The translations under genes were made by a program, and so were the position numbers. A model generated the notes under the pieces. It did not search any database, was not told the DNA's origin, and worked only from the letters and a program-made list of their open reading frames with translations. DNA of 64,000 nt, from contig MCGE01000010.1 of assembly GCA_002105175.1 (NCBI GenBank), forward strand, positions 1,612,001 to 1,676,000, written 5' to 3'. Below, one piece after another: positions 20,290 to 59,446 of this stretch; position 1 is the stretch's first letter; each line of letters opens with the position of its first letter. Source of the stretch: Absidia repens. Taxonomy: Eukaryota > Mucoromycota > Mucoromycetes > Mucorales > Cunninghamellaceae.

Positions 20290-20980
20290 ATACGATAGTA
20301 TGTACAGGTGATATGGAACAGACTCGTCGGACTAACGCAACCACAGAAACATTTCCAATTCCGACCACGTGGATTTTTATTTTTTTTTTCCCTCCCGATT
20401 TTTTGTTCATTTTCTTTTCTTTCTTTATTTTTTTCTACGCCATTCAACTGTATGAGGTTATGCTGATCTTAGATTAGTGCCAGGACTAGTTTAGAGGGGT
20501 TTTCAGCTCAGGGATTAAAAGATGCATGGGGAAACCCTTTCATTTTTGATCTAGGATCGGAGGACACCATTAGTTTGCTTTTTGGAGCCTCCATCAGCTT
20601 AGTTTTGCGTTCGTTTATCCATAGTTTATGAATAAAATATGTCTATGTTTACTTGCTCAATAAAAAATGTCCCAGTAGTCTCTCTCATGTCTGGTACAAG
20701 CGATCGTTTTTTACCATCGTCCCCTTTAGATTGTTCTGAAATGTTGTTATGTTTCGATAAAAGGGGATATCCTTTTTATTGCCTTTATCATAGCTTGTAT
20801 TATATTAAATCTCATTTTACAATTGTCTTTGGGTCATTGCTGGCTATCCTTCAGATCTTTCACCCCACACACCGCCACCAATCGATTCTTTCATTTAATC
20901 CATTATTACAATAAACCCTATCCATTCTATAGTTTAGTATCTATCAATACGCTTCAATAAAAATATATCTTTTTGTTAAT
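20290..20980 (+). repeat. Dispersed repeat family, copy B (subfamily 2, extended)
   Basis: The core (about 20455-20650) contains CAGGACTAGTTTAGA, GATGCATGGGGAAACCC and CACCATTAGT..TTTTTGGAGCC, ending in ATGAATAAAATATGTC. These occur in the same order in the 50.3 kb copy and, inverted, at 42.3 kb. Homology with the 50.3 kb copy extends upstream (TTCCGACCA at 20356) and downstream (TGTCCCA..TCATGTCT). A second block, CTTCAATAAAAATATATCTT (20955-20974), is shared with copy A. Confidence 0.65.
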
Positions 20981-33682: not shown

Positions 33683-35116
33683 ATGACCACTGATACTCAA
33701 CAACAACAGCAACAACAAGAACTCACCATCACCCGGTACGAAGTATGTGATATCCGGTTTCCTACAAGCAAACACCTGGATGGGTCTGATGCCATGAACA
33801 AAGATCCCGATTACTCAGCGGCCTATGTTATTTTTTATACCAATGATACCCGTCTGGAGGGCCATGGGATGACATTTACGTGTGGTCGGGGAACGGAGGT
33901 GTGTTGTAGTGCGATTGAAGCGTTGGCTGGGAAATTTGTCGGCCGCACGCTTTCATCGCTGACGGTGGATATGCGACAAACACATCAGATTTGTACGGGC
34001 GATTCTCAATTACGCTGGATTGGGCCTGAAAAGGGAGCCATCCACTTGGCCACGGCGGCGGTGATCAATGCTATTTGGGATCTCTGGGCCAAACACGAAA
34101 AGAAACCATTGTGGAAACTGATTGTCGATATGACCCCTGAACAATTTGTCCAATGTATTGATTTCAAGTATATCACGGATGCCCTCACGCCTCAAGAAGC
34201 CCTGGACATGCTCAAAGCCAATCATCCCACCAAGGCTCAGCGGGAACAAGAAATGCGGAACAATGGGTACCCTGCTTATACAACGTCGGCTGGATGGCTA
34301 GGTAAGTAACCCACAAAAAAAAAACAGGAGGGGGGAGTGGCGATATGGTGTGGTGATAGACAACCGCATTACTCATATTTTTTTTTGGCGTGATAAACAG
34401 GTTATAGTGATGACAAAGTCCGTCGGTTGTGTCGGGAAGCCAAGGAACAAGGATTCACGTACTTTAAACAAAAGGTGGGCGGGGACAAGGCATCGGATAT
34501 CCGTCGAGCGGCACTGATTCGTGAAGAAATTGGGTCGGATGGTGTATTGATGATGGATGCGAATCAGATTTGGGATGTACAAGAAGCCATTGACTGGATG
34601 CAGGATCTTCTCCCTTTCAACCCCTTGTTTATTGAAGAGCCTACGTCGCCTGATGATGTGCTAGGTCATGCTGCGATTCGCAAGGCGCTGTATCCGAAAA
34701 CAAAAGTGGCGACGGGTGAACATATCCAAAACCGGATCATCTTCAAGCAACTCTTCCAAGCACAAGCCATCGATTACTGTCAAATTGATTCGTGTCGTGT
34801 GGCGGGTGTCAATGAAATCCTGGCGATTCTTTTGATGGCCAAGAAATTCAATATTCCTGTGGTGCCTCATGCCGGTGGGGTGGGTCTTTGTGAATACGTC
34901 CAACATCTGTCCCTGGTAGATTATATCTGTGTGTCTGCCACCATCGAAGACAGAGTCTTGGAATATGTCGATCATCTCCATGAACACTTTTTGGACCCTG
35001 TGGTGATCAAAAATGGCTGCTACGTGGCTCCTTTGGCTCCTGGTTACAGTATCACTATGAAACGCCAATCGATTGATGACTATTCCTTCCCCAAAGGTCG
35101 CGTGCATAACGAATGA
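33683..35116 (+). CDS. L-fuconate dehydratase-like enolase-superfamily enzyme
   Basis: Two exons, 33683-34301 and 34401-35116, 444 residues. After a short Gln tract the N-terminal capping domain begins ITRYEVCDIRFPTSKHLDGS and includes GHGMTFTCGRGTEV. The barrel domain shows the KxK base motif (TYFKQKVGGD), metal ligands in VLMMDANQIWD, FIEEPTSPDD and KVATGEHIQNR, and the His of VVPHAGGVGLCEYVQH, which is the mandelate-racemase-subgroup layout of L-fuconate dehydratase/ENOSF1. The reaction is expected to be dehydration of a sugar acid such as L-fuconate to a 2-keto-3-deoxy acid in the cytosol. Length matches the family (about 440). The exact sugar acid cannot be decided from sequence. The gene has a fungal-type intron. 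Confidence 0.92.
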
Positions 35117-39717: not shown

Positions 39718-40482
39718 ATGCCTTCTTCCAGTCCTCATATCTATTTTTGCCCTCCAAGGTAATAACAGGAAAAGTTCAAATCATAATTTTCATAATGATC
39801 GCAAGAAAAAACAATAAATGTATATATCAATATTAAAGGTTAGGGATGCTGTTGATGACCTTATTCTGGGCTTTCCGAGCACTTGCAGACTTGTATGTGG
39901 CAGGATTTTCTTTTCATTATACCAGGGGCATTGGCTGGAGACAATTTAACATCCAGTTGAAAAATTGCTCCCTTTTAAAGAATCCCATCAACTCATTCGA
40001 TGATGCTATTTATCTTGCTATGTTCTGCCTTTACTTATTCATGTCTTACTCAATCTGGAAGGTGTGTACCATATACTGATTGTAGCTACAAACCTGGTGT
40101 TACTGGGGCCGCGTTCTAACGTTGTTGTTTTTTTTTTTTTAATTGTACTTCTTTGTAGCAAAAATTTATATACATTGATATCACGCTTTACATCATGATG
40201 GCTATCATTATTTACAAAGGTTGGTTTGCTGTATATCTGCTTGTTCAAATTCTTCATCATGTCATATGTGGTTGGGTGCGTTCTGGCATTTTTTCAAGTC
40301 TTGTTTTGGAGTTCATTTTCAGTGCTCCTTCTATCATCAACCGGGTAATGGACACCTAATAAGTACAAAAGTCCGTATATCAAACCGAACTCACTATACT
40401 AATACCTATTTTTTTTTTTTTTTCGCTATTGAAGATTTACTTTGTGTGGAAGGTTAAATCATATCTTAGTTCCCTAGAGTAG
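39718..40482 (+). CDS. Four-TM array protein 1 (divergent member)
   Basis: Exons 39718-39758, 39839-40061, 40159-40344 and 40435-40482 (165 residues). It shows the array architecture: N-terminus MPSSSPHIYFCPPR with the last Arg codon split by the first intron, then LGMLLMTLFWAFRALADLYV (TM1), YLAMFCLYLFMSYSIWK (TM2, ending at the second intron), two further hydrophobic segments (ITLYIMMAIIIYKGWFAVYL and IFSSLVLEFIFSAPS), and a short tail starting IYFVWKVKSYL. It has a single Cys before the Pro-Arg rather than a cluster, and lacks the acidic loop and long tail of the others, so it is the most divergent and shortest member. Same strand and intron phases (2, 0, 0) as the following eight genes. 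Function unknown. Confidence 0.72.
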
Positions 40483-40836
40483 CGTTTTTATCACATTTAA
40501 AAAAAATCATACTTAAAAATAAAAATCAACTCCGCCTACTTACTTTTTCATAGTATCATTAGAAATATATTGTTTAGTGTTCATAGCTCTTGACAAATCG
40601 AACACACATCTTTACAAGTTGAAACAAAAAAAAAAAAAAAAAAGCATAAAAATAGGACTGACCTTGTATAACACAAGTATCGTTCTGATTTGAACTTGCT
40701 GTTGCACAATGCGTTCTTATTTTGCCACTGCGGTTAATATTAACATGAGCTAGTTTCTTTTTCGTATATAAGAACCCTTTCTCACCATTCCGATTTTTTT
40801 TTTTTCATTTTGACTCATATATCATCCTCACTCAAT
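40483..40836 (+). promoter_or_regulatory. Upstream region of array gene 2
   Basis: Holds the 3' flank of array gene 1 and a TATATAAG box at 40765-40772, 65-72 bases before the start of array gene 2, followed by a T run. Nothing else is seen. Confidence 0.5.
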
Positions 40837-41186
40837 ATGGGATCAAGACCGCTTATCTACTGCTGTGTGCCTCGGTAGGCAAAAGAATACGATGAAAGGG
40901 GGGGGGAATGGCGTTGTTGTTGTTTTTCTGAGTTACTAATGAATTATAAAATTATGTGTAGAGCAGGAATGATGACTCTGACCTTCTGGTATGGCTTAAC
41001 CCATTGGTTTGGTCTTTTCATCATTGCCATTTTACTATCGCTTTCTGAAGAACAATTTCTTTGGGTGAAGAAAATCGTGGACCCTGACGATCAACTGGGC
41101 GAGGACACTCTCCTTGATTATCTTGATTGTTTGGCCTGTTTTGTCATTGGCTATGCATATTTTTATATGTGTTATTTGGCTTACAA

Positions 41187-41224
<38 letters not shown>

Positions 41225-41706
41225 AATGATGCCAAATGAGCGACGACACCTAAAAAAACGCCCTCCACCCTTTTTTTTAATGATAGAGAAATTTCAAACC
41301 CATCAACAAGTTACTCTATTTTTTCGCTGCGGACCTCGTTTGGGGTGTTGGGATCATACTCATGGCGGTCCATAACGAGTTCAAAAATACAATGAAAGAA
41401 TCAAAAATTACAGTGAACGAACTCCCAGAAGATCCAAAAAAATATGAGGTGCAAGTAGAAACGCCCATAAAGTTCGGTCTAATCTTTTGGCTCTTTTTAT
41501 GGCATGTGGTACCATTTATCAACAAGGTAAAGTGATATTATCTCTAAAGAAGTAAAAAAGAAATATGCAAAATCATCTACTCATTGCAACGTGACCCGTC
41601 TTTTTTTTTCACATAGGTTTATGTATTCCTCAAAATTCGCGCCTACATCAAATACGTCGAGTATAAGAAAGAAGAAGCTGAAACTTGCTCAAAATCTAAA
41701 GATTGA
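40837..41706 (+). CDS. Four-TM array protein 2
   Basis: Exons 40837-40874, 40962-41187, 41287-41526 and 41617-41706 (197 residues). N-terminus MGSRPLIYCCVPR, then AGMMTLTFWYGLTHWFGLFI (TM1), acidic loop (KKIVDPDDQLGEDTLLD), CLACFVIGYAYFYMCYLAYK (TM2 to the intron), KLLYFFAADLVWGVGIILMA (TM3), and FGLIFWLFLWHVVPFINK (TM4 to the last intron). The tail VYVFLKIRAYIKYVEYKKEE shares the YIKYV-YKK module with the rest of the array. The 38-nt first exon and IYCCVPR place it nearest subtype B. Both N- and C-termini are probably cytosolic (four segments, basic tail). I know of no named family; the function is unknown. Confidence 0.82.
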
Positions 41707-42865
41707 CCCCAGTCAAAACTATATGTTTCTAGTCACTTTTTTTCAATATATATATATATTTAAACAATGGTTATCAATAAATGGAAAATGAGAACAATGA
41801 TCAACGAGATGAATACCGGGGGACTGATGGGAACGGGTAGAAGAGCGGAGGGGTTTATACATTTTCATATTATGCAAAAAAAAAAAAAAAAAAGAAAAGC
41901 CCTCCCCAGCTACAATAGCATATCAACAATACTCAGTATCCATTGGGTCAGAGGATGATTAATAAAATGGATATATTTTATTCAAACATATTAAACTAAA
42001 AGCGAGGGATTCACTATAACAGAGAGGGGGGGGGAGAAAGGGAGCTGTTGGAGGTGGCTTGAAGAGACGTCTGGAATTTCGTCAGCAACAATCTAGAAGG
42101 ACAATTGTAACATGGGAACGACAATATTGTACAAAGCATGAGAGATTTGTTTTCATTGAAGCAAATAAAAAGAGACATGTTTATTAAGGTCTAGATTCAA
42201 ACTATGGACAACATAACACTAAATTAAACTGATGATGACTTCAAAAAGCCAACTAATGGTGGGTTCTAAATCCTAGATCCAAAATGAAAGGGTTTCCCCA
42301 TGCATCTTGTAATCTCTGAGCTGAAAACCCTTCTAAACTAGTCCTGATACTATTCTAAGACCAACATAACCTCATAGAAGTTGAATGGTGAAGAAAAAAG
42401 AAATAGAAAAAAAAAGGGGGAGGCGAGAGAGAGAGGAAAATAAAAAATTTATGTGTGCTGCGTTTGAAATCTTGCCAGGGCTTCTCTCTGAGGATTGGGT
42501 TACAATTTTATTTTTATCCCTCCCATAAAAGGAAGCTTGCCTTTTTTCTTGTTCTTACTTCACCAATAACATAGTAACTCCCTTCTCATGACGATCACTA
42601 TCATCTTTCAACATGGGAAGTATGGCGATTTTTCTCTTATTAAACAGTAGATTTATTTTATTACCTTGGTGCCTTGCTATTGCTTTATTTTCGCTATTAA
42701 TGTGTTCTGTGTTCAGCACAGCAGCATGATAGAATCGGAGTTTGGTAGTGCAACGCTGTTTCACACCCCTCCCCACAGTGGTACAACGAGCATGATTCTA
42801 TTTAAGAAGCAACTGAAGAGGTTTTTTTTTTTTTTTTCTATGTATTATTCCGAAACATCATCATT
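41707..42865. other. Intergenic between array genes 2 and 3
   Basis: Contains an inverted dispersed-repeat copy (42130-42480), a G-rich GGGGGGGGG stretch near 42026 and the promoter of array gene 3, with TATTTAAG at 42799-42806. No gene is seen. Confidence 0.5.
42130..42480 (-). repeat. Dispersed repeat family, copy C (inverted, subfamily 2)
   Basis: Read on the minus strand it carries AGGACTAGTTTAGAAGGGT, TTACAAGATGCATGGGGAAA, CACCATTAGTTGGC and a terminal AATAAACATGTCTC, in the same order as copies B and E. Homology to copy B continues past the AATAAA (TTGCTTCAAT, TCTCTCATG). It is the only inverted copy of the five. Confidence 0.65.
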
Positions 42866-43703
42866 ATGAGCGACTTGAAACAACCGACTATGTGCTGCTG
42901 CCTTTTGCCACGGTACTAAAAAATCAAAATCATTAAAACACCGTTTAATTTTTTCTTTTATACTAGGCCAGGTATCATGTTATTTACATTATCATATACT
43001 GCCTATGCATTCTCTGGGATGTTCTTTTTAACATTGGGGTATATCCTCACACAAAACATAGCGCCACATCAAGTCGAAGATCAAGATGAAAGATCAGTGG
43101 GACTTTCTGACATGATTTTTACCTGGGAGCACATGGCAAATGTGATATGTGGCTTTATTTACTTTTACACATTTATTCTGGCTTACAAGGTACCCTTTTT
43201 CTACGGATTCCCATAACGTTCGGACAAAATCAAAAAGGAATATGAATGAAATAACATGATATTATTTTTTCATATAGAGGAAATGGGAGTCATTCGAATA
43301 TGCACTTCGAGCTTTGATGGCTATTGCACTCTTTGGAGTTTATGAATGTTATGATCAATTCAAATTCATGTTTCTGATACATTCACAAGTGTATGGTCCT
43401 AAGCCTGACGAAGTGGATGACAATGTTTACGCTGAATTTCAAAACTCGTATCCCTCTGCCTCTGAATCTATTGTATTTGGCCTGATTGTTTATGTTATCC
43501 CATGGATTATACAGGTAAAATAGGAATGAGGCAACACTATTGTATGTCTTTTTTTTTTTTTTTTACTCAAGTCCTTCATTTTTTTTTATTGTGATGTCAT
43601 GTAGTTGTACCTTATCAAACAAACCCGAACTTATATAAAATATGTATTGTATAAGAAGGGGGAAAAAAATATGTCATCGTCGTCTGAAAAAGTCAAACAA
43701 TAA
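42866..43703 (+). CDS. Four-TM array protein 3 (subtype A)
   Basis: Exons 42866-42912, 42967-43189, 43278-43514 and 43605-43703 (201 residues). The N-terminus MSDLKQPTMCCCLLPR carries three adjacent Cys before the Pro-Arg. TM1 is IMLFTLSYTAYAFSGMFFLT, followed by a loop with IAPHQVEDQDE, TM2 VICGFIYFYTFILAYK, then RKWESFEYALRALMAIALFG (into TM3) and IVFGLIVYVIPWIIQ (TM4). The tail LYLIKQTRTYIKYVLYKK ends in a Ser-rich stretch with SSSEKVKQ. The nearest relative is array protein 6, which shares the IAPHQVEDQ loop and the GPKPDE.DD segment. Adjacent Cys beside a membrane segment suggest palmitoylation or metal binding, by inference. Confidence 0.85.
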
Positions 43704-44084
43704 AGTAACAATACAACCCTGCCCAAGCGTTTTATGTTAGTCCCTCTACATCCCCAGTGCAGTAAATAAAAAAAAATTGATCCCTGAGCGGCATTTTAAA
43801 AAAGCTAAAAAAAATGTGCAACTTTTATTATGAGTCAATGCTGAAAAAAAAAGTTGGCTTTTTTCAGGAAGGGGACATGCTGCGAACTTGCGTAGCCCGT
43901 TTAGGATACGGTGTACAGAAAAAACCGCATTTGAAAAGTTTCAACTGACGCCCAATTGAGAAGAAAAAGTTGTACTACTGAATGAACATAGGTTACACAA
44001 TGAAAAAGGTGGAATATGAATATATAAACCTGATCTTTTTAAACCACCAATTCCCCCTTCCAATTTTATTGTACCATTATCACT
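43704..44084 (+). promoter_or_regulatory. Upstream region of array gene 4, shared with gene 7
   Basis: The interval from about 43870 to 44040 is strongly similar to the one before array gene 7 (48610-48790): shared blocks include GTTTCAACTGACGCCCAATT-like DNA, TTGTACTAC.GAATGAA.ATAGG and GGTGGAATA.GAATATATAAA. The TATATAAA box is at 44021-44028, about 60 bases before the start codon. Confidence 0.65.
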
Positions 44085-44922
44085 ATGCCGTCCAAACCAA
44101 TTATATACTGCTGCGTCCCAAGGCAAGAAAAAAAAATCATGTCGTCATTTTTTAAACCAGTCCATCATAATAATTCCACTGATTTTCTTTTGACCGATAG
44201 ACCTGGCATCATATTCATGTCACTTATATTTGGTTTCTGCGGGCTTGTCCCAAGTATCTCTACACTTTACTCGTTACATTTTATTAGCTTTAAGAGCTTT
44301 TCATGTTTTATAGATTGTATGGACCGTGATGTCGACATCATTAGTACATTTGCATTTTTCTATTCAGCCTATCTTACTTATAAGGTATATATGTTTTTTT
44401 TTGGGGGGGGATATCCATTTACACTCGAGTACTGATTGCAATTTTTTTTTGTTTATAACTATAGCGGAGATACAAGCCATTCAAATACTTGCAGTATATC
44501 TTTTGGACTCGTGTTTTATTCGATGTTTACAACGGGATATATACTCTAAAAGCTGCTTTGACTGTGCCACTCGATCAATACAATATTAACAAAGACATGC
44601 CTTACAATGCCACAAACAACAACGGACTTACAGAAGAAGAATATCATAAACTGAATGAAACTCTATCGTATGGTGTCTATGCCATCATGCCTTTTATAAT
44701 GGCATTTCTCATACTGTTTCCTCTATTGAACAAAGTAAGTCCTCTAAAAAAAAAAAAAAAAAAAAAAAAAGATCATACTCAACTTTACTTGTTTTTCAAT
44801 GTTAGATATATCTCATTATAAAAATGAAAGCTTATACAGATTATGTCACATATAAAAAGGAAGAAGCTCGGCCTGTACCAGTAATTGAACTGCCCCATAA
44901 ACTACCAGAATGTAGCCAATAA
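44085..44922 (+). CDS. Four-TM array protein 4 (subtype B, GC-AG first intron)
   Basis: Exons 44085-44122, 44201-44384, 44465-44734 and 44806-44922 (202 residues). N-terminus MPSKPIIYCCVPR, then PGIIFMSLIFGFCGLVPSIS (TM1), IISTFAFFYSAYLTYK (TM2), KRRYKPFKYLQYIFWTRVLF (start of TM3), a loop with MPYNATNNNGLTEEEYHKLN containing an N-glycosylation sequon, VYAIMPFIMAFLILFPLLNK (TM4), and tail IYLIIKMKAYTDYVTYKKEE ending LPHKLPECSQ. The first intron begins AG|GCAAGA, a GC donor instead of GT; the acceptor GATAG and phase match the other copies exactly. Its closest relative is array protein 7, which has the same GC donor. Function unknown. Confidence 0.85.
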
Positions 44923-45776
44923 ATTCAAATGAATATTTTATATAAAGGTTTTCATGCATATAGCGATGTTTAAAAGCAAAAATTTTGTTTACAATTTTTG
45001 ATTTTTCATCGTATCCAGTGGATGACAACGCCAAAATCAGGAACAGCCAGAAAGCTTTTGCTTACAAAAGTGACGTACAGTATAGTGTGGTTTAACATAC
45101 ATATAGCTTTTATTATTGAACATATTGAATAAAAAAGACATCTGTATATATGTATATAGATATATTGATGATAGTTGCTAAATGTAGAGGATGAAAGGAA
45201 ACAGAGAGTGTTGAAACAAAATTCGAAAACAGGTCAAATATTTTTTGTTACTTTTTTATACAGTAGCTTATATCGGGACAGAAAGAAGGGAATGATCTAA
45301 TATTTAACACACATATAGGGGAAATAGAGGGAGATATATATCATCAAATTTACTGAATGATGTAGGGTTTTGAGCTATGAACGGTACGATTTTGAACCAT
45401 TAGTGGCGAAGTTCCATTTGTAGTACATTCATGTTTGATCCAATATCAATTATGGAAGCTTAATTAAGGGGCCAAAAGAGGGTGGGTGGGTGGGGAGGAA
45501 TGGAGACCGGCCCAATAAACATAGGCATAAAAAAGATAATCTGGGTAAGGGGAAAGGGGGAGGGGATGAAAAATGAGCGAGCATGATGGAATCAGAGATT
45601 CTTGGTGGGTAACCTAATTTTTTTTTTTTTGGGTAACCTGAATTGCAAAATCATTGATGGCTGCGCTTTGTCATGGTCATACAAGAAGCATGATACTATT
45701 TAAGAAAAAGCTTTTCTTTTTCTTTTTTTTGTTGTTGTTGTTTTGTTTTTCTTCCCTCGCTCACAAACATTTCATC
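44923..45776. other. Intergenic between array genes 4 and 5
   Basis: Similar in segments to the DNA before array gene 8 (50660-51230), sharing GAACATA.TGAATAAA, a TTTGTAGTA..TT.ATG.TTGATCC stretch and GGAAGCTTAATT.AGGGG. The promoter TATTTAAG is at 45697-45704, with CATGATACTATTTAAG conserved in all subtype A genes. No gene is seen. Confidence 0.55.
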
Positions 45777-46638
45777 ATGGCCAATTTAAAACAACCTTCT
45801 GTCTTCTGCTGTCTTTTACCGCGGTATTTCCAAAAAAAAAAAAGCTCACAGCAGAGTATAGAATAATAAAAACATAATCTAATTATTATTTTTTTCAAAA
45901 AAAAAAACACATTTTTATAGACCAGGCATCATGCTGTTTACATTCCTATCTGCTGTATATGCATTCTCTGGAGTATTTGCTATGACGGCAGGTTTTGTGT
46001 TTGCGTATTTTTACATGCCACTTCCAGACACAGCAAAGGAAGGAATGTTCTTCAAATTTGCTAGTAATCTTTTTAAATTGAATACGGTGGTTGACGTTTT
46101 TTGCGGTTTGATATATGTTTATGCCTTTATTCTAGCATATAAGGTAAGATTTAAATTTTTGAAATATGAACGAATCCGCCCCTCAAAAAAGGTAGAGGAG
46201 ACTAACCCCCCGCTTTCTATCTATTCTATTAGAGGAAATGGAAAGCTTTTGAGCCAGTGCTTTATGTCTTTTTGGCTATTGCGCTCTACGGTGGCTATTC
46301 AATGCTTTGTACTATTAAAGAAAACTATCTGGTCGCTCTTAATAGAGACGATTCCATTACGGATAAGTTTGGTGATATGGATGATGATCACAAAGAATCA
46401 TTCAATAGATGGTTTCCTAGGCTGCTTGTTGTCACTACCTTGATCCTTAGTGTTATGCCATGGCTCATTCAGGTACCTTGGTCAATGCGTTCTTCTACAA
46501 ATACAATAAAAATCATTACTCAGAAGCTTCCTTTTTATTATATATATATAGGTGTACTTGATCAAGCAGATACGATCTTATATAAAATACGTTTTGTATA
46601 AGAAAGACGAAAAGTATGTATCCTCTTCCTCCGAGTAA
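45777..46638 (+). CDS. Four-TM array protein 5 (subtype A)
   Basis: Exons 45777-45823, 45921-46143, 46233-46472 and 46552-46638 (198 residues). N-terminus MANLKQPSVFCCLLPR, TM1 IMLFTFLSAVYAFSGVFAMT, a loop with PLPDTAKEGMFFKFA, TM2 VVDVFCGLIYVYAFILAYK, TM3 EPVLYVFLAIALYGGYSML, an acidic loop (RDDSITDKFGDMDDDHKES), TM4 LVVTTLILSVMPWLIQ and tail VYLIKQIRSYIKYVLYKKDE ending in Ser-rich SSSSE. The nearest relative is array protein 8 (same ANLKQPS start, same DKFG.MDD loop). The promoter contains the subtype A core CATGATACTATTTAAG. Function unknown. Confidence 0.85.
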
Positions 46639-46691
46639 TATATCTGTTAGGAATCCACCCATTGATTAGCATAAAATAAACGTTATTTTGA

Positions 46692-46856
46692 CCCGCTGGA
46701 GCGCGTTTGGAAAACTGGATGTTAGGGAGGGGGTCTTCATTTTTTGAAATGGGGGGTTTTGCTGGGATGGGATTAGCCAACTCCGGCATTGCACACTTTG
46801 GTGGGTCTGCGCTTGGAGGCTCAGCCGTCATCGTCAGTGGGGTTATTTTGAAGTAA
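46692..46856 (+). other. Coding-like Gly/Ala-rich fragment of unknown origin
   Basis: An open frame of about 54 codons (with ATGs at 46719 and 46749) ends at TAA 46854. It includes MGGFAGMGLANSGIAHFGGS followed by ALGGSAVIVSGVIL, a glycine-spaced hydrophobic pattern not produced by simple repeats. The minus strand is also open across it. No splice sites connect it to a neighbour. It could be a decayed gene piece or chance. Confidence 0.25.
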
Positions 46857-47059
46857 AAAAAAAAAAAAAAAGGATGGATGGGGGGAGGATATAGGTTCCC
46901 ACTACGGTGACCTGCCACTGGGAGTCAGTGAATTATTTTTGTGTGGGGAATGGGTTGTGTGGAAATTCTCCCATTCGCACTCCGCCTTCAATAAATTTAA
47001 TTTAGGTTTTTTTTTCCCCTCTTTCTCTCTTTTCTGTTTATTTTCCAGAATATCGACTT

Positions 47060-47300
47060 CATTGGTATACTGTTTGTGGCATTTAGTGATCTTGGATTAG
47101 TGTTAGTACTTGAATTAGGGGCATTTTGAAAAGTGCAATGCAAACATCATGGGGAAACCCTTTCATTTTGGATTCGTGATTTGGGACTATTACCAGTAGA
47201 TTAGTCTTCACCTTTAAAATAGTGTCATTATAGTGTTAGCTGCCTTTAGTTTATATCAATATATGAATAAATACATCTTATCTTTTTAACATATGTCTTG
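47060..47300 (+). repeat. Dispersed repeat family, copy D (subfamily 1)
   Basis: Contains GTGATCTTGGATTAGTG, GGGGCATTTTGAAAAGTGCA, AAACATCATGGGGAAACCC, TTTCATTTTGGAT and a terminal ATATGAATAAA. It is closest to copy A at 7.5 kb. A CT-rich tract lies upstream as in the other copies. Confidence 0.65.
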
Positions 47301-47704
47301 TTGAATTGGCCTGTATGAAAAAAATACAATTTTATCAAACTGTATCTGGCCTTTGCTATTGTGAAATGTACTTCAATGATGTCATTTTTTCAGTTTTAGG
47401 CCGATAAATCGTTATTTTTGAGTTAGCATAGTTGGAAATTGCTTCATTCATAAATATTTTCCATCAACAAAGGAATTTTGATTGTCTTTGGTTATTCAAT
47501 GATCTCTTTACGGTATGACAGGCGGCACGGTAGGGCGGCGGAATCGGAGCTGTAGGTACAAACGCTGTTTCGTTCACAAAAGAAAAAGAAAATGAGATAA
47601 CTGGCTGCGCTATATGATAGTCGCACAAGGGCCATGATTCTTTTAAGAAATAAGAAACTCTTTTTTTTTCTTTCCTTTTTTTTTGCTCCCAAACATTCCC
47701 CATT

Positions 47705-48516
47705 ATGAGCAACTGGAAGCAACCGACCATGTGCTGTTGCCTGTTACCGCGGTATTAATTTCTTTTTTGTTCTAAAGAAGTTATCATCTAATTTTCTTTA
47801 TACTAGATCGGGTATCATGTCGTTTACATTTTTATATACTGGCTATGCATTCTCTGGGATATTCTTTAAAATATTAGGGTATATCTTCACACAAAAAATA
47901 GCACCCCATCAAGTCGAAGATCAAGGTGAACTTTTTGATTTTCTTTTTACTTGGTGGCACATGGTAGATGTGATATGTGGCTTCATTTACTTTTATGCCT
48001 TTATTCTGGCTTATAAGGTACCTTTTTTATATTTGTTTCCATAAAATGCGAACAAAACTAAATAGAAAGGTGTGAAGAATGAACTAACGTGATATTATCT
48101 CATCATACAGAGGAAGTGGGAGTCACTCGAATATGTACTTTATGGTTTAATGGCTATTGCGCTCTACGGGATTTATCCAATCTACCATGATATCAAAACT
48201 TGTTTTACCATGAATGATAAATTAAAAGGTCCTAAGCCTGATGAATTGGATGACGCTCAATACGCCATGATGCAGAAATGGATCGTTCTGACTTATATTG
48301 GATTTTCCCTGGTTTCTCAGGTCATCCCATGGATCATACAGGTAAATAAAATGTAGCCAATAATATTGTATTTCAAACCATTTATTCTATTTTTATGCAT
48401 ATATCATGTAGTTGTGCCTGATCAAGCAAATGCGAACCTATATAAAATATGTTTTGTATAAGAAGGAGACAAAAACTATACCGGCCTCCTCTGAAAAAGT
48501 TCAAACAATAAAATAA
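47705..48516 (+). CDS. Four-TM array protein 6 (subtype A)
   Basis: Exons 47705-47751, 47807-48017, 48111-48341 and 48412-48516 (197 residues). N-terminus MSNWKQPTMCCCLLPR, then SGIMSFTFLYTGYAFSGIFF (TM1; Ser replaces the Pro after the Arg), loop IAPHQVEDQGELFDF, TM2 VDVICGFIYFYAFILAYK, RKWESLEYVLYGLMAIALYG (into TM3), loop LKGPKPDELDDAQYAMM, TM4 IGFSLVSQVIPWIIQ and tail LCLIKQMRTYIKYVLYKKET. It is the block-duplicate partner of array protein 3. Its TATA-like core (TTTTAAG) is weaker than in the other subtype A genes, which may affect expression. Function unknown. Confidence 0.85.
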
Positions 48517-48840
48517 TGGTTGTCCTTCTGTACCCCTGGGTACAAAAAAAAAAAAAAAAAACGGCACTGCAGCGGAATTTAATAATGCATCGGAAAGGAA
48601 TAGGGTTTTTCGTAAAGGGATATGCTGCGACTGGCGTAGTTCGCCTCGAATAGGGTGAACAGAAAAAAACCATACTTAAAGTTTCAATTGACGCTCAATT
48701 GAGAACAAAAAGCTGTACTACAGAATGAATATAGGTTTCACAAATAGGAAGGTGGAATACGAATATATAAACCTCAACCTTCTTTTTTTGAAAAAAAAAA
48801 AAACACTTTTACCCACCCATTTGATTATACCATAATCATC
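48517..48840 (+). promoter_or_regulatory. Upstream region of array gene 7, shared with gene 4
   Basis: Counterpart of the region before array gene 4, with TATATAAA at 48764-48771 preceded by GGTGGAATACGAA. An A run (48545-48560) near the left end differs from the gene 4 copy. Confidence 0.65.
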
Positions 48841-49701
48841 ATGCCGTCCAAACCGCTTATATATTGCTGCGTCCCAAGGCAAGTTAAAAAAAAAAAGAGA
48901 GAGAGAGAATGTCATCCTCTCTAAACCAGTCCATCATAATAATCTCTTTGATTTCCCTTTTCTTGCCACACTTGTCCAATTAGACCAGGCATCATGATCA
49001 TGTCACTAGTATTTGGTTTATGGGGCCTTCTACCAAGTATTGTCACACTTTATTCGTTAAATTTCTTTTACTTTAAGAGTTTTTATGGTTTTATAATTTG
49101 TATGCAAAATAATGTTAGAGTCATTAGTACATTTGCATTTTTCTATGCAGTCTACCTTACTTATAAGGTATGTATAGATTTTGACGTTGGTATCAATTTA
49201 CACCAAAGGACTCACAATGGCGGTTTTTTTCTTTTTTTTTACAATTTTAGCGGAAATACAAGCCATTCAAATACTTGCTGTATATCTTTTGGGCTAGTAT
49301 TTTACTCGATGTTTGCTCTGGGTTATTTTCTCTAAAAGCTGCGTTTTCAGTAACACACAACCCACATAAAGTTAAAACTGAAATTCCATACAATGCAACA
49401 AATCACAAGGGACTTACGGAAGAAGAATATAATCAAATGAATGAAGCTATAGAATCTGGTGTCTATGCCGTCATGCCTTTTGTAATGGCTTTTTTCACCC
49501 TATTTCCCTTAATAAACAAAGTAAGTCTTGCAAAAAGGAAAGGGTGTTTTTTTTTCTTATCTTAACCTTATTTTTTTTTTTTAGATATATCTCATTATAA
49601 AAATGAAAGCTTATGCAGATTATATCGCATATAAAAAGGAAGAAGCCCGGCCTGTGCCAGTAGTTGAACTACCCCATAAACTACCAGAGTGTAGCCAATA
49701 A
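48841..49701 (+). CDS. Four-TM array protein 7 (subtype B, GC-AG first intron)
   Basis: Exons 48841-48878, 48984-49167, 49251-49520 and 49585-49701 (202 residues, identical exon lengths to array gene 4). N-terminus MPSKPLIYCCVPR, TM1 IMIMSLVFGLWGLLPSIVTL, TM2 VISTFAFFYAVYLTYK, KYKPFKYLLYIFWASILLDV (TM3), loop IPYNATNHKGLTEEEYNQMN with the same N-glycosylation sequon, TM4 VYAVMPFVMAFFTLFPLINK, tail IYLIIKMKAYADYIAYKKEE and end LPHKLPECSQ. The first intron starts AG|GCAAGT, a near-perfect GC-donor consensus. It is the block-duplicate partner of gene 4. Function unknown. Confidence 0.86.
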
Positions 49702-50079
49702 AAGCTCTATGTCATAATTTACGCGCTTCATGCACATGCACGTCTACTCAGTTTACCACCCTCCCATAAATATTTATCATCGCCAAAATTCCATTTATAT
49801 TATACATTACTGCAAAATTAGTGAGCCATAATATTAGCATTTAGTTTATATGGTATTGGATGGCATGTAGTCTAGTCAGTAAAAGTACAGTTATTCTACA
49901 GGTAGTTAAGAAACTATATAAATATTCGACAGTGAAATAGGTAAGCTTGGCTCGAGAGGCCAATTTGCTATGATATGGTGAGTCCAAAGTCATAATTATG
50001 AGAGAAGATAGTTACTATGCCACTGTGAGAAGAAAATTATTATGCTGATGTGTTGTATGGTGTTGATCTGTTTTGTATC

Positions 50080-50520
50080 CATCTCTCGCCAGACAGAAAT
50101 TGGAAAATGTTTCAAATTCCGACCAGTGCGTTTTTGGGCTTTATCCTCCTATTTTTTTTTTCCCTTTCCGTTCTCTTTTCTTTTCATTTTCCTTTTTTTT
50201 TTCACCGCCAATCTACTTCGTTGTGGACCTAGTGGCCTTGGCTTTCTATTAGGACTAGTTTAGAAGGGTTTCAGATAAGGGATTACAAGATGCATGGGGA
50301 AACCCTTTCATTTTGGATTTATGATCTGACGGCACCATTAGTTGGACTTTTTGGAGCCTTCATTAGTTTGGTTTAGTATTAGTTTGCCCATAGTTTTGTA
50401 TCTACATCTAAATAAAATATGTCTTTTTTTTTTGTATATGTGTTAATGAGACGTGTCCCATTTGTCTTTATCATGTCTTGTGCTAGTGATCCTTTTCTAC
50501 CATCTCCTTTCTGGTGTCAT
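50080..50520 (+). repeat. Dispersed repeat family, copy E (subfamily 2)
   Basis: The core 50250-50423 has AGGACTAGTTTAGAAGGGT, GGGATTACAAGATGCATGGG, GAAACCCTTTCATTTTGGAT, CACCATTAGTTGG and a terminal AATAAAATATGTC. The upstream TTTCAAATTCCGACCA and CT-rich tract, and the downstream TGTCCCA and TCATGTCTTG, are shared with copy B. The arms AAGGGTTT and AAACCCTT can pair into a stem. Confidence 0.65.
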
Positions 50521-50772
50521 TGGCGTGGGTATGTAGTGTTGATTGTGGTCAGTCTATCAGCTATGCAGTGGGCGGGAGATAAAAATTAGTGCAATTTTTA
50601 TAGTTTATAAGCATAGCATGGCATAGTGCAGTATAGTTTGCCATATAGATAGTTTTTTTTTTTTTTTTTTTTTTGAACATACTGAATAAAGGATATTTGA
50701 AAATGTATTACACATTGATCATTGTTGCTGGGCTAAATAGTAGGAAGCGAGAGAGAGTGTTTAGGCAAATGC

Positions 50773-50830
<58 letters not shown>
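50773..50830. repeat. (ATT)n microsatellite
   Basis: About 19 uninterrupted ATT units between repeat copy E and array gene 8. The corresponding position before array gene 5 lacks it, so it arose after the block duplication. Confidence 0.9.
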
Positions 50831-50832
<2 letters not shown>

Positions 50833-51231
50833 GAGAAAGAATGAAGAGGATCTTCTAATGCATAACGTACATTTATAGGTGATATACGGGCGTACATCGG
50901 CACAAATTCAATAGATGATGTATAGTTTGCAATATGAACGACACTGTTTTGGACCATCAGTGGAAACGATCTGTTTGTAGTAGATTTATGCTTGATCCGA
51001 AGTGGCCTTGAATATAGTGGAAGCTTAATTGAGGGGCGAAAGGAGAGAAAATGGGGCAAGTATGATGAAATCAGAGATTATTCGTGTGACAATGAGTAGG
51101 TATTCTGAATCACCAAAACCGTTGATGACTGCGCTTTGTCAAAGTGGTACAAGACGCGTGACACTATTTAAGAAAAAAAAAACTTTTTGTTGTTGTGTTT
51201 TCTCCTTTCGGTCGTTCATAAACATTTCATC

Positions 51232-52066
51232 ATGGCGAATTTAAAGCAACCTTCTATATTCTGCTGCTTGTCACCGCGGTATTTCAAAAATAAACCAGGC
51301 GCATACACACAGAGTGTGGTGTGGTAAAAATATTATCTGATTTTATAACAAAAATTATATTTTTATAGACCAGGCATCATGCTGTTTACATTCTTATCTG
51401 CGGTACACGCATTCTCTGGGATAGTTGCAATCATGCCAGTATATGTCTATGCGTATATCTATGAGCAAGTTCCGGGCACGGCAACGGATTTGCTCTTTGG
51501 TTTTGCCAGTGGTCTTTTTAAATGGAATCGCATGATTGATGTTTTTTGCGGATTGATACATGTATATGCCTTTACTCTTGCTTATAAGGTAGGCTTTTTT
51601 TTAAAAAAAAAAAAGAAACAAAAACAAGTGTGACTAATGCCTTATTAAATCTACCAGAGTAAATGGAAAGCATTTGAGTCGGTGCTTTATGCCCTGTTGG
51701 CTATTGTAGTCTACAATAGCTATTCAGTGTATTGTTCTATGAAAGAAAACTATATGACCGTTCATAATAAAGATGGTTCCCATACGGAGAAGTTTGGTGC
51801 AATGGATGACAATCAAAAAGAAACAATCAATAAATGGCTACCTACCGTCCTTGCTGTCATTATCTTGATCCTTGATGTTATACCGTTGCTCGTTCAGGTA
51901 CATTGACCAATACGTTCTTATAACTACAATAGATGTCAGTACTCAGAAGCCTTTTTTTTTTTTTTTTGCAATATAGATGTACTTGGTAAAACAGACGCGA
52001 TCTTATATAAAATACGTATTGGATAAGAAAGACGAAAAGCATATACCATCTCCTCCAAGTACATAA
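51232..52066 (+). CDS. Four-TM array protein 8 (subtype A)
   Basis: Exons 51232-51278, 51369-51588, 51658-51897 and 51977-52066 (198 residues). N-terminus MANLKQPSIFCCLSPR, TM1 IMLFTFLSAVHAFSGIVAIM, TM2 MIDVFCGLIHVYAFTLAYK, SKWKAFESVLYALLAIVVYN (into TM3), acidic loop KDGSHTEKFGAMDDNQKETI, TM4 LAVIILILDVIPLLVQ and tail MYLVKQTRSYIKYVLDKKDE ending PSPPST. It is the partner of array protein 5. The promoter has GTGACACTATTTAAG. Unlike the other A-type copies, TM4 has an Asp (LILDVIP). Function unknown. Confidence 0.85.
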
Positions 52067-52324
52067 CAGCTGTGTAGACAAACACTAAATTGATTAAATT
52101 GGCCCTGAGCTGAGCTTGAAAAGTGATGTTGGAGGTACTTTTATTTTTATCACAATCAAGAATAAACTTGTGCTACTAGAAAAAAGCACTGATCCTGTTA
52201 AAAAGGAAAAGCTCTTTGATGATTGTTACACGGTGGGACTTCGGAATACGATATATAATAAATCAGGCTTCTTTCTTTTTTTCCATGCCTTGCTCTTGTA
52301 TATATAAAATCATCTTGCTATCGT

Positions 52325-53179
52325 CATGCGGCCTACACCGATTATATACTGCTGCCTCATTAGGTAAAACGTATAATGCCATCCTATCCAGATCAAACCA
52401 CAATCCTGAAACCATTGGGTTTCTGTCGTAATGACTTTCTTTTTTCCGTAGGCCAGGAATAATATTCATGTCGCTTATATTTGGTTGTGTGGGCATTCTT
52501 CAATGTTTATATGACCTTTTAAGGTCTGGTTTCTTCCATGTTGCAAACTTTGAGGATTTTTTGAATTGCACTTGCCGTATTGTCACCATTTTCACTACCT
52601 TTAGTTTTTTCTATTCAGCCTACCTCGCTTACAAGGTTTAAATGAAAAAAAAAGTTCGATGACGGTGGGGGGGGGTTTCAGGAAGGGAAAAGGACTCACT
52701 TAATTTTTTTTTCACCATCTCTAGCGGGAATACAAACCGTTCAAATACTTGTTGTATATATTTTGGACGAATATTTCACTCGATATATTCAGTGGGATGT
52801 TCGTTTTAAAAACTCTTTTTGACGTGACATCAAAGTCAATCGACATCAAAGAAAAATTGCCATACAACGCGACTGAAAATCATAAGCTTACAGAGGATGA
52901 ATATTATAGAATTGCCCAAAACGTGTCATCTGGTGCTGATGTCATTTTATCGTTTATTGTTGTTTCGCTTTTGCTGTTTCCATTTTTAAACAAGGTAAGT
53001 TTTGACAGCCCCGCCCTTTTTCCCTTTCTTTCCCTCAGCCATTTTTTTCTCGTGTGTACGTATAGGTATATCTCGTTGTAAAACTGAAAGCGTATGCCGA
53101 TTATATCAACTATAAAAAAGATGCTTCTTCCGTGCCTTCTGTAAAATTGCCCCACAAATTACCACAATGTAGTCAATAA
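52325..53179 (+). CDS. Four-TM array protein 9 (subtype B)
   Basis: Exons 52325-52362, 52452-52635, 52725-52994 and 53066-53179 (201 residues). N-terminus MRPTPIIYCCLIR, then PGIIFMSLIFGCVGILQCLY (TM1), VTIFTTFSFFYSAYLAYK (TM2), REYKPFKYLLYIFWTNISLD (into TM3), LPYNATENHKLTEDEYYR (loop with the subtype B sequon), VILSFIVVSLLLFPFLNK (TM4), tail VYLVVKLKAYADYINYKKD ending LPHKLPQCSQ. It has the same exon lengths as genes 4 and 7 except the last, but its first intron has a normal GT donor (GTAAAA). The second intron donor is the weak GTTTAA. A long A run follows the stop codon (53201-53235). Function unknown. Confidence 0.84.
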
Positions 53180-58825: not shown

Positions 58826-59446
58826 TTATGATACATGTTTAAGATAACCAGCCTTGATCAATGTTTCCACATCAGTCCGACGTACATAGTATTGGTTACC
58901 TTTCACTAGATTCAGTACACCATACTCAGTATGAATTTCGCCAGCATCCTTGATCACACGTACTTCAATAAACAGGTCCTTAGGAGGCACCAGACCCACA
59001 CCACCATTGCCACCGAGATCGATTTCCAAAAAGCCTTGCTTATAACTAGACACAATTTCCCCATATTCTTCCAAAAACGTATGTTCCTGAGGCCCTAGCG
59101 ACGATTTGATATCGCGTTGGAATTCGCCTTGCCGACCGACATCCCACGAGAGTTCTTTGAGTTTCTCCATGCGCTGGCGATGATAGGCAAAAAGGACACG
59201 CTTGTTGTGCTTGACGGCTGAATGATGCATCAGCAATTGGGCCAACCGACTGATGCGTTTGTCTGCGTCGTCCTGACCATTGTTTTCCCGCATCGATTGT
59301 AAGAGCAGTTCGGCCTTACCATGAAGCATTCGAGTTTCACGGCAAATACTTTGTACAAGATCTTCGTTGTAGGGGGATACCAGTAGATCGGATGTTCGCT
59401 TGGCTTCCTTGGCTAATTTGTAACTTGATTCACCAAAAGTCGCCAT
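58826..59446 (-). CDS. PSF1: GINS complex subunit PSF1
   Basis: Single exon of 206 residues on the minus strand. The N-terminal helical A-domain reads KLAKEAKRTSDLLVSPYNED, with LVQSICRETRMLHGKAELLL, then RLAQLLMHHSAVKHNKRVLF and AYHRQRMEKLKELSWDVG, the signature of PSF1. The C-terminal B-domain ends PPKDLFIEVRVIKDAGEIHT, TEYGVLNLVKGNQYYVRRTD and VETLIKAGYLKHVS. With Sld5, Psf2 and Psf3 it forms GINS, part of the CMG replicative helicase in the nucleus. It is intronless, unusual for this window. Upstream (coding strand) TCTGGCGCGTGC around 59531-59542 resembles an E2F/MBF-type site, fitting G1/S expression. Confidence 0.95.
   Translation of the reverse strand: MATFGESSYKLAKEAKRTSDLLVSPYNEDLVQSICRETRMLHGKAELLLQSMRENNGQDDADKRISRLAQLLMHHSAVKHNKRVLFAYHRQRMEKLKELSWDVGRQGEFQRDIKSSLGPQEHTFLEEYGEIVSSYKQGFLEIDLGGNGGVGLVPPKDLFIEVRVIKDAGEIHTEYGVLNLVKGNQYYVRRTDVETLIKAGYLKHVS

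Follow-up and report, generated by a model that had tools for sequence, protein, structure and literature searches.

What kind of protein does a fungal genome encode nine times over in one row, and to what, if anything, is it related? The row in question lies at positions 39718-53179 of a 64,000-nucleotide stretch of Absidia repens DNA (hereafter the window; contig MCGE01000010.1, C2:1612001-1676000), where a preliminary description made from the sequence had placed a tandem array of an apparently undescribed family of proteins with four transmembrane segments (TM1 to TM4). The nine genes are one family, whose duplication history and selective constraint can be read from the DNA. As to what they encode, we propose that the proteins are very distant relatives of the LAPTM4 proteins, which belong to the lysosome and Golgi of animals, and that they would act in a similar manner, as non-catalytic partners of other membrane proteins in the endomembrane system or at the cell surface, with the second non-cytosolic loop (loop 2) setting the client. 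To this proposal, which draws on sequence comparison and on analogy, we assign a probability of roughly 0.45.

Gene models rebuilt from splice signals and reading frame gave nine successive plus-strand genes of four exons each, all with intron phases 2, 0 and 0, encoding proteins of 165, 197, 201, 202, 198, 197, 202, 198 and 201 amino acids (aa) in gene order, just as first described (165-202 aa). The introns are 54-105 bp long and of the GT-AG type in 25 of 27 cases, the other two being GC-AG (intron 1 of gene 4, 44123-44200, and of gene 7, 48879-48983); the counterpart in gene 9 has a GT donor. Intron 1 of gene 4 (78 bp) is open in frame, and its retention would add 26 residues (open reading frame, ORF, 44085-44435). 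The absence of an interrupting gene was confirmed for ORFs of at least 120 aa, the sole one inside the array overlapping a gene 5 exon (shorter ORFs had no domain scan). BLASTP within the set linked every pair. Identity peaks at 69% between genes 4 and 7 and drops to 19-26% where gene 1 is compared with the others; the weakest E-value is about 0.003 (genes 1 and 9). Since the exon plan, the motifs and alignable sequence are common to nine consecutive genes, chance is excluded. Searches of the whole genome (47,368,516 bases, 79 contigs) with genes 1, 2, 3, 5, 7 and 9 and one of the copies found on contig C33 as queries (7 of 11 members), in which only the best candidates were scored, recovered the array and two extra genes on C33, giving at least 11 family members; gene 1 found itself alone among the candidates scored, and gene 2 has no close copy in the genome. 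In a tree of the 11, subfamily A (support 99/99) unites genes 3 and 6 and the C33 copies with genes 5 and 8, subfamily B (91/88) consists of genes 4, 7 and 9, and the position of genes 1 and 2, both on long branches, is unsure.

The preliminary description of the proteins themselves stood in most parts. Four hydrophobic segments are visible in eight of the nine proteins at the hydropathy cut-off used, but gene 4 shows two. The introns were said to bound each segment; the first in fact follows the N-terminal motif, the second TM2 and the third TM4, so that TM1 and TM2 share exon 2 while TM3 and TM4 share exon 3. The pattern C-x(1,3)-R-x-G is present at the N-terminus of all nine, and the invariant columns of their alignment include its Cys, Arg and Gly together with the Lys that ends TM2. 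That TM2 ends in AYK or TYK is true of eight proteins (gene 1 has IWK), and that TM4 ends in IQ or NK is true of seven (gene 8 has VQ and gene 1 NR); the basic YIKYV-YKK-like tail is lacking in gene 1. Net charge, counted in the nine array proteins between region borders placed by hand (as were those for the substitution counts below), is positive in the TM2-TM3 linker and the C-terminal tail of all nine, zero or negative in loop 2 of all nine, and negative in the loop 1 stretch of seven (positive in genes 1 and 7). N-glycosylation sequons occur in loop 2 of genes 4, 7 and 9 only, which are the three subfamily B members, and also in loop 1 of genes 1 and 9, in the TM3 region of gene 9, and in the tail of gene 3 and of one C33 copy, a tail that would be cytosolic in the model proposed here. 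Together, charge and sequons point weakly to termini in the cytosol and to two loops in the lumen. The N-terminal Cys might conceivably be palmitoylated.

Two features, a Cys-Arg-x-Gly near the start of the protein and an AYK at TM2, resemble LAPTM4 and prompted the comparison with it. The LAPTM4A and LAPTM4B sequences used do match the Pfam family Mtp. With hhalign, a profile of the 11 family members aligned with human LAPTM4B colinearly and at near full length (177 columns) with a score of 38.4 (P 3.1e-5), as against 13.2 for the reversed sequence and 27.3 for the best of 100 block shuffles. LAPTM4A scored 28.1, above the four-pass controls CD81 (12.9), CD9 (14.2), MAL (14.1) and PMP22 (17.1), which aligned over 16-44 columns; LAPTM5, in an unverified sequence, was at background (14.5). 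As one alignment, the three LAPTM sequences scored 28.0, compared with 14.5 when reversed and at most 25.7 in 100 block shuffles. With HMMER, a hidden Markov model (HMM) of the 11 members ranked LAPTM4B first of 606 sequences at 16.3 bits (next 11.3), above all 600 block shuffles and the reversals, and a nine-member HMM gave it 12.7 bits, the controls reaching at most 1.8. In the reverse direction, a model of the three LAPTM sequences ranked gene 2 first of 1,122 at 15.5 bits (next 12.0), above 1,100 family shuffles, and the other ten family members at 5.6 bits or less. Gene 2, the array member most like LAPTM4B, also matched it by BLASTP over 173 columns (E 7.6e-5, for a single pair with composition correction off), and in Smith-Waterman comparisons scored against 100 shuffles it reached a z of 5.2 with LAPTM4B, the controls staying at or below 2.0; gene 7 reached 3.7 with the unverified LAPTM5 sequence. 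When gene 2 was left out of the profile, LAPTM4A scored 25.8 and both LAPTM4 proteins still exceeded the four controls (12.1-17.7).

Several results weigh against a relationship with LAPTM4. The hhalign score of LAPTM4A was equalled or passed by three of 100 of its own shuffles (best 29.4), and with the 11-member HMM it obtained 4.4 bits, below at least 24 shuffles, while LAPTM5 obtained 0.5; with the nine-member HMM the two fell to -0.4 and -2.5, and the LAPTM5 sequence is in any case unverified. The profile without gene 2 matched LAPTM4B at 28.5 over just 97 columns, the BLASTP match of gene 2 to LAPTM4A is out of register, and all other members gave Smith-Waterman z scores of 2.2 or less with LAPTM4A or LAPTM4B. 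Taken alone, subfamily A was at background (13.2 and 12.6 for the LAPTM4 proteins, 14.3 for PMP22), and subfamily B placed LAPTM4B (15.2) below CD9 (18.2), with LAPTM4A leading at 21.2. Furthermore, Pfam Mtp (PF03821) matched none of the nine array proteins at E-values up to 10, a [LP]PxY (PY) motif is found in 0 of the 11 family proteins, and six of the nine array members are without a sequon in loop 2. We therefore regard the LAPTM4 link, which depends for the most part on the pairing of gene 2 and LAPTM4B, as weakly suggested and not proven. A search of the genome with Pfam Mtp gave no match, but it was uninformative, as the control also matched 0 of 14 genomes. One place on contig C19 was matched by LAPTM4B (E 0.02); judged by eye, without a domain search, it is a stretch with an internal stop beside an apparent zinc-finger gene, and we consider the match to be due to chance.

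These results bear directly on the view that the family is an orphan unrelated to LAPTM4, its likeness being convergence on a generic four-pass layout; such a protein might serve as a scaffold in the membrane or in the response to stress, in the manner of MARVEL/Nce102 or Sur7 proteins. We consider this a serious possibility, though one that we doubt. Besides a LAPTM4 signal that is weak and dominated by gene 2, it is favoured by the database searches: Pfam scans of the nine array proteins at E-values up to 10 (where the HMMER filters drop most matches above 0.1) gave no family over its cut-off for any of them, with six proteins having one sub-threshold match each, to unrelated families (E 0.093-3.7), and three having none, and the best matches of the family profile among PDB sequences were 6b87 (TMHC2_E) at E 0.68 and sarcospan at E 1.2. 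It is disfavoured by the background scores of the four-pass controls CD81, CD9, MAL and PMP22, and by the colinearity with LAPTM4B over 177 columns. A PDB search with LAPTM4A gave nothing under E 0.6, and no relatives were found in the prokaryote genomes searched with gene 7 or in the viral contigs searched with genes 3 and 7 and LAPTM4B. Such a fungal family did not turn up among the records listed in literature searches, with subscription papers largely outside their reach. Thus the expanded, strongly diverged four-TM family of the preliminary description was borne out, and "undescribed" remains apt with respect to the curated families of Pfam; the family may nevertheless not be a complete orphan, since its profile resembles LAPTM4B and, to a lesser degree, LAPTM4A from end to end.

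In the model proposed here, each protein would begin in the cytosol with a short N-terminus, its Cys-x(1,3)-Arg-x-Gly lying next to the membrane, and would continue through TM1, a loop 1 in the lumen or outside the cell, TM2, a short basic linker in the cytosol, TM3, a loop 2 on the same side as loop 1 and acidic in most members, and TM4 to a basic cytosolic tail. LAPTM4A has, according to PMC6258472, both termini in the cytosol and luminal regions of 33 and 32 residues; the second of these sets paralogue specificity, such that swapping it decides support for Gb3 synthase, an enzyme that can associate with both LAPTM4 proteins. Loss of LAPTM4A lowers Gb3 synthase activity at a step after transcription, as described in PMC6348303. 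By analogy, we infer that the array proteins may be non-catalytic partners or escorts in the Golgi, endosome, vacuole or plasma membrane, that they would bind a client membrane protein, and that loop 2 would determine which client is bound. LAPTM4 tails carry PY motifs that help to sort LAPTM4 to lysosomes, according to PMC3214061; sorting of the array proteins would not use such motifs. A more specific version, in which the array belongs to the LAPTM4 superfamily as its fungal branch and forms a tandem set of client-specific cofactors, each paralogue escorting or activating through its loop 2 a different membrane enzyme or transporter of the Golgi, vacuole or cell surface, seems to us unlikely.

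Tandem duplication and the duplication of a block gave rise to the copies, and purifying selection has kept those of the array. Gene 1 (39718-40482; exons 39718-39758, 39839-40061, 40159-40344 and 40435-40482) is the most divergent member, and is followed by gene 2 (40837-41706; exons 40837-40874, 40962-41187, 41287-41526 and 41617-41706). The next three are gene 3 (42866-43703; exons 42866-42912, 42967-43189, 43278-43514 and 43605-43703), which is nearest to both C33 copies, gene 4 (44085-44922; exons 44085-44122, 44201-44384, 44465-44734 and 44806-44922) and gene 5 (45777-46638; exons 45777-45823, 45921-46143, 46233-46472 and 46552-46638). Their respective partners are gene 6 (47705-48516; exons 47705-47751, 47807-48017, 48111-48341 and 48412-48516), gene 7 (48841-49701; exons 48841-48878, 48984-49167, 49251-49520 and 49585-49701) and gene 8 (51232-52066; exons 51232-51278, 51369-51588, 51658-51897 and 51977-52066), and the row ends with gene 9 (52326-53179; exons 52326-52363, 52452-52635, 52725-52994 and 53066-53179). 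Since the DNA of genes 3-4-5 (42777-46637, plus strand) is colinear with that of genes 6-7-8 (47619-52061, plus strand), in three main pieces of 72-75% identity, a three-gene block was duplicated. Between the paired genes, identity is 62-78% in the proximal promoters (150 bp), 52-62% in the next 150 bp and 50-77% in the introns, so that conservation of the promoters is not clearly greater than that of the introns.

Selection on the array was estimated by the Nei-Gojobori method from nonsynonymous (dN) and synonymous (dS) divergence in 8 of the 36 possible pairs, with bootstrap intervals. In one pair (genes 2 and 7) dS was saturated. In the other seven, selection is purifying across the gene as a whole, with dN/dS values of 0.27-0.52 and intervals below 1: the block pairs 3/6, 4/7 and 5/8 have dS values of 0.58, 0.34 and 0.42 and ratios of 0.41, 0.50 and 0.52, and four older pairs have ratios of 0.27-0.34. 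This is difficult to reconcile with a recognition array diversified by selection, to which the preliminary description's own speculation on self/non-self recognition, hyphal fusion or mating would lead. The tandem layout, the strong divergence and the block duplication would suit such an array, as would the finding that, of six regions compared in four pairs, loop 2 shows the greatest dN in three (in genes 5 and 8, loop 1 and TM4 are higher). Ratios above 1 were also seen in short stretches, namely TM2-3 of genes 4/7 (2.06), loop 2 (1.07) and TM4 (1.23) of genes 5/8, and loop 1 (1.7) and TM2-3 (1.26) of gene 3 and a C33 copy, each of which rests on few synonymous changes. Given the whole-gene constraint and the lack of any known domain in the nine proteins by Pfam, we find these roles unsupported and a recognition array quite improbable.

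The two further genes, at C33 66840-67687 and 73385-74239, are related to gene 3, and since both retain all three introns they are DNA-level copies. Their identity to the gene 3 segment is about 87% over 2.1 kb, including an upstream repeat, and each segment extends through the gene 4 promoter and first exon and breaks off within gene 4 intron 1. The segments form a direct repeat, each unit being about 3.2 kb long and 89% identical to the other (65751-68972 and 72286-75513, loci L034-L035), in repeat-rich surroundings that also hold an ORF judged integrase-like by eye (L034:7616-8035). The dispersed repeat noted upstream of gene 3 lies at 42125-42420 (plus strand), within the segment present twice on C33, and recurs in the window at 20343-20763, at 50149-50510 in the block of genes 6-7-8, and as a fragment at 47086-47182. 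It is about 265 bp long and abundant: scoring 40 of 3,659 first-look genome candidates gave 41 matches, which are 83-91% identical, the query itself and one partial match aside. Copies of it border genes of the array as well as the gene 3 segment that was copied. Dispersed repeats between the genes might suggest that the array is decaying or silent and kept by chance, as might the C33 copies, which hold a mere remnant of gene 4 and encode proteins of 200 aa and, in the other case, 191 aa. In addition, three of four C33 comparisons have dN/dS intervals that include 1 (0.57, 0.60 and 0.38), the fourth, with gene 6, being 0.39 with an interval that does not. However, frames and splice sites are intact in all nine array genes and the seven usable array pairs are under purifying selection, so that decay of the array is in our view the least credible reading of all.

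As for the surroundings, the ORF flanking the array upstream belongs to the HSP90 family, which is compatible with the earlier label TRAP1 and was not resolved further, and the downstream flank is SF3B1 on the minus strand, as labelled. Beyond SF3B1, a minus-strand ORF at 58826-59446 has PSF1 C-terminal and Sld5/GINS domains and is an ordinary replication gene. Elsewhere in the window, an ORF at 34427-35116 carries a C-terminal domain of the enolase superfamily (MR_MLE_C). Scans of the window for Rfam families and tRNAs gave no match.

In fungi it is common for small membrane proteins to have expanded within a single lineage. If the link to LAPTM4 is true, a protein group studied in mammals (in the papers cited here) would be extended to this lineage, and the array would supply natural paralogues in which to study how loop 2 picks its partner. 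If it is false, what remains is a membrane family, uncharacterised and under constraint, whose history of duplication is clear and whose interest for fungal genomics is moderate.

How, then, does the family compare with known four-pass systems? Tetraspanins (PF00335) also have four TM segments and cysteines beside TM1, and their termini are cytosolic, as predicted for the array family; the CCG motif of the large tetraspanin loop was found in 0 of 11 members and the Pfam match in 0 of 9, and with CD81 and CD9 at background we rejected this assignment. MARVEL (PF01284) and PMP22/claudin (PF00822) proteins are likewise small four-pass membrane proteins, and both were rejected on the same grounds (Pfam match in 0 of 9 for each, and background scores for MAL and PMP22). 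A W..W..C..C pattern, made up for the purpose and not the true claudin signature, occurs in gene 2 only and is attributed to chance, as Pfam and the PMP22 comparison were negative. From LAPTM4 the array family differs in lacking tail PY motifs and a Pfam Mtp match, and it is because of these two absences that we do not file it as LAPTM; it differs also in its expansion as a tandem multigene set, and its identity to LAPTM4B is 11% across the aligned columns (gene 1 being the printed row). With both LAPTM4A and LAPTM4B it has in common four TM segments, a Cys and then Arg-x-Gly opening TM1, two short loops predicted here to be non-cytosolic, a short TM2-TM3 linker, and a YLI after TM4 that is present in four of the nine array members. 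The linker has AYK in LAPTM4B, though not in LAPTM4A, and in six of the nine.

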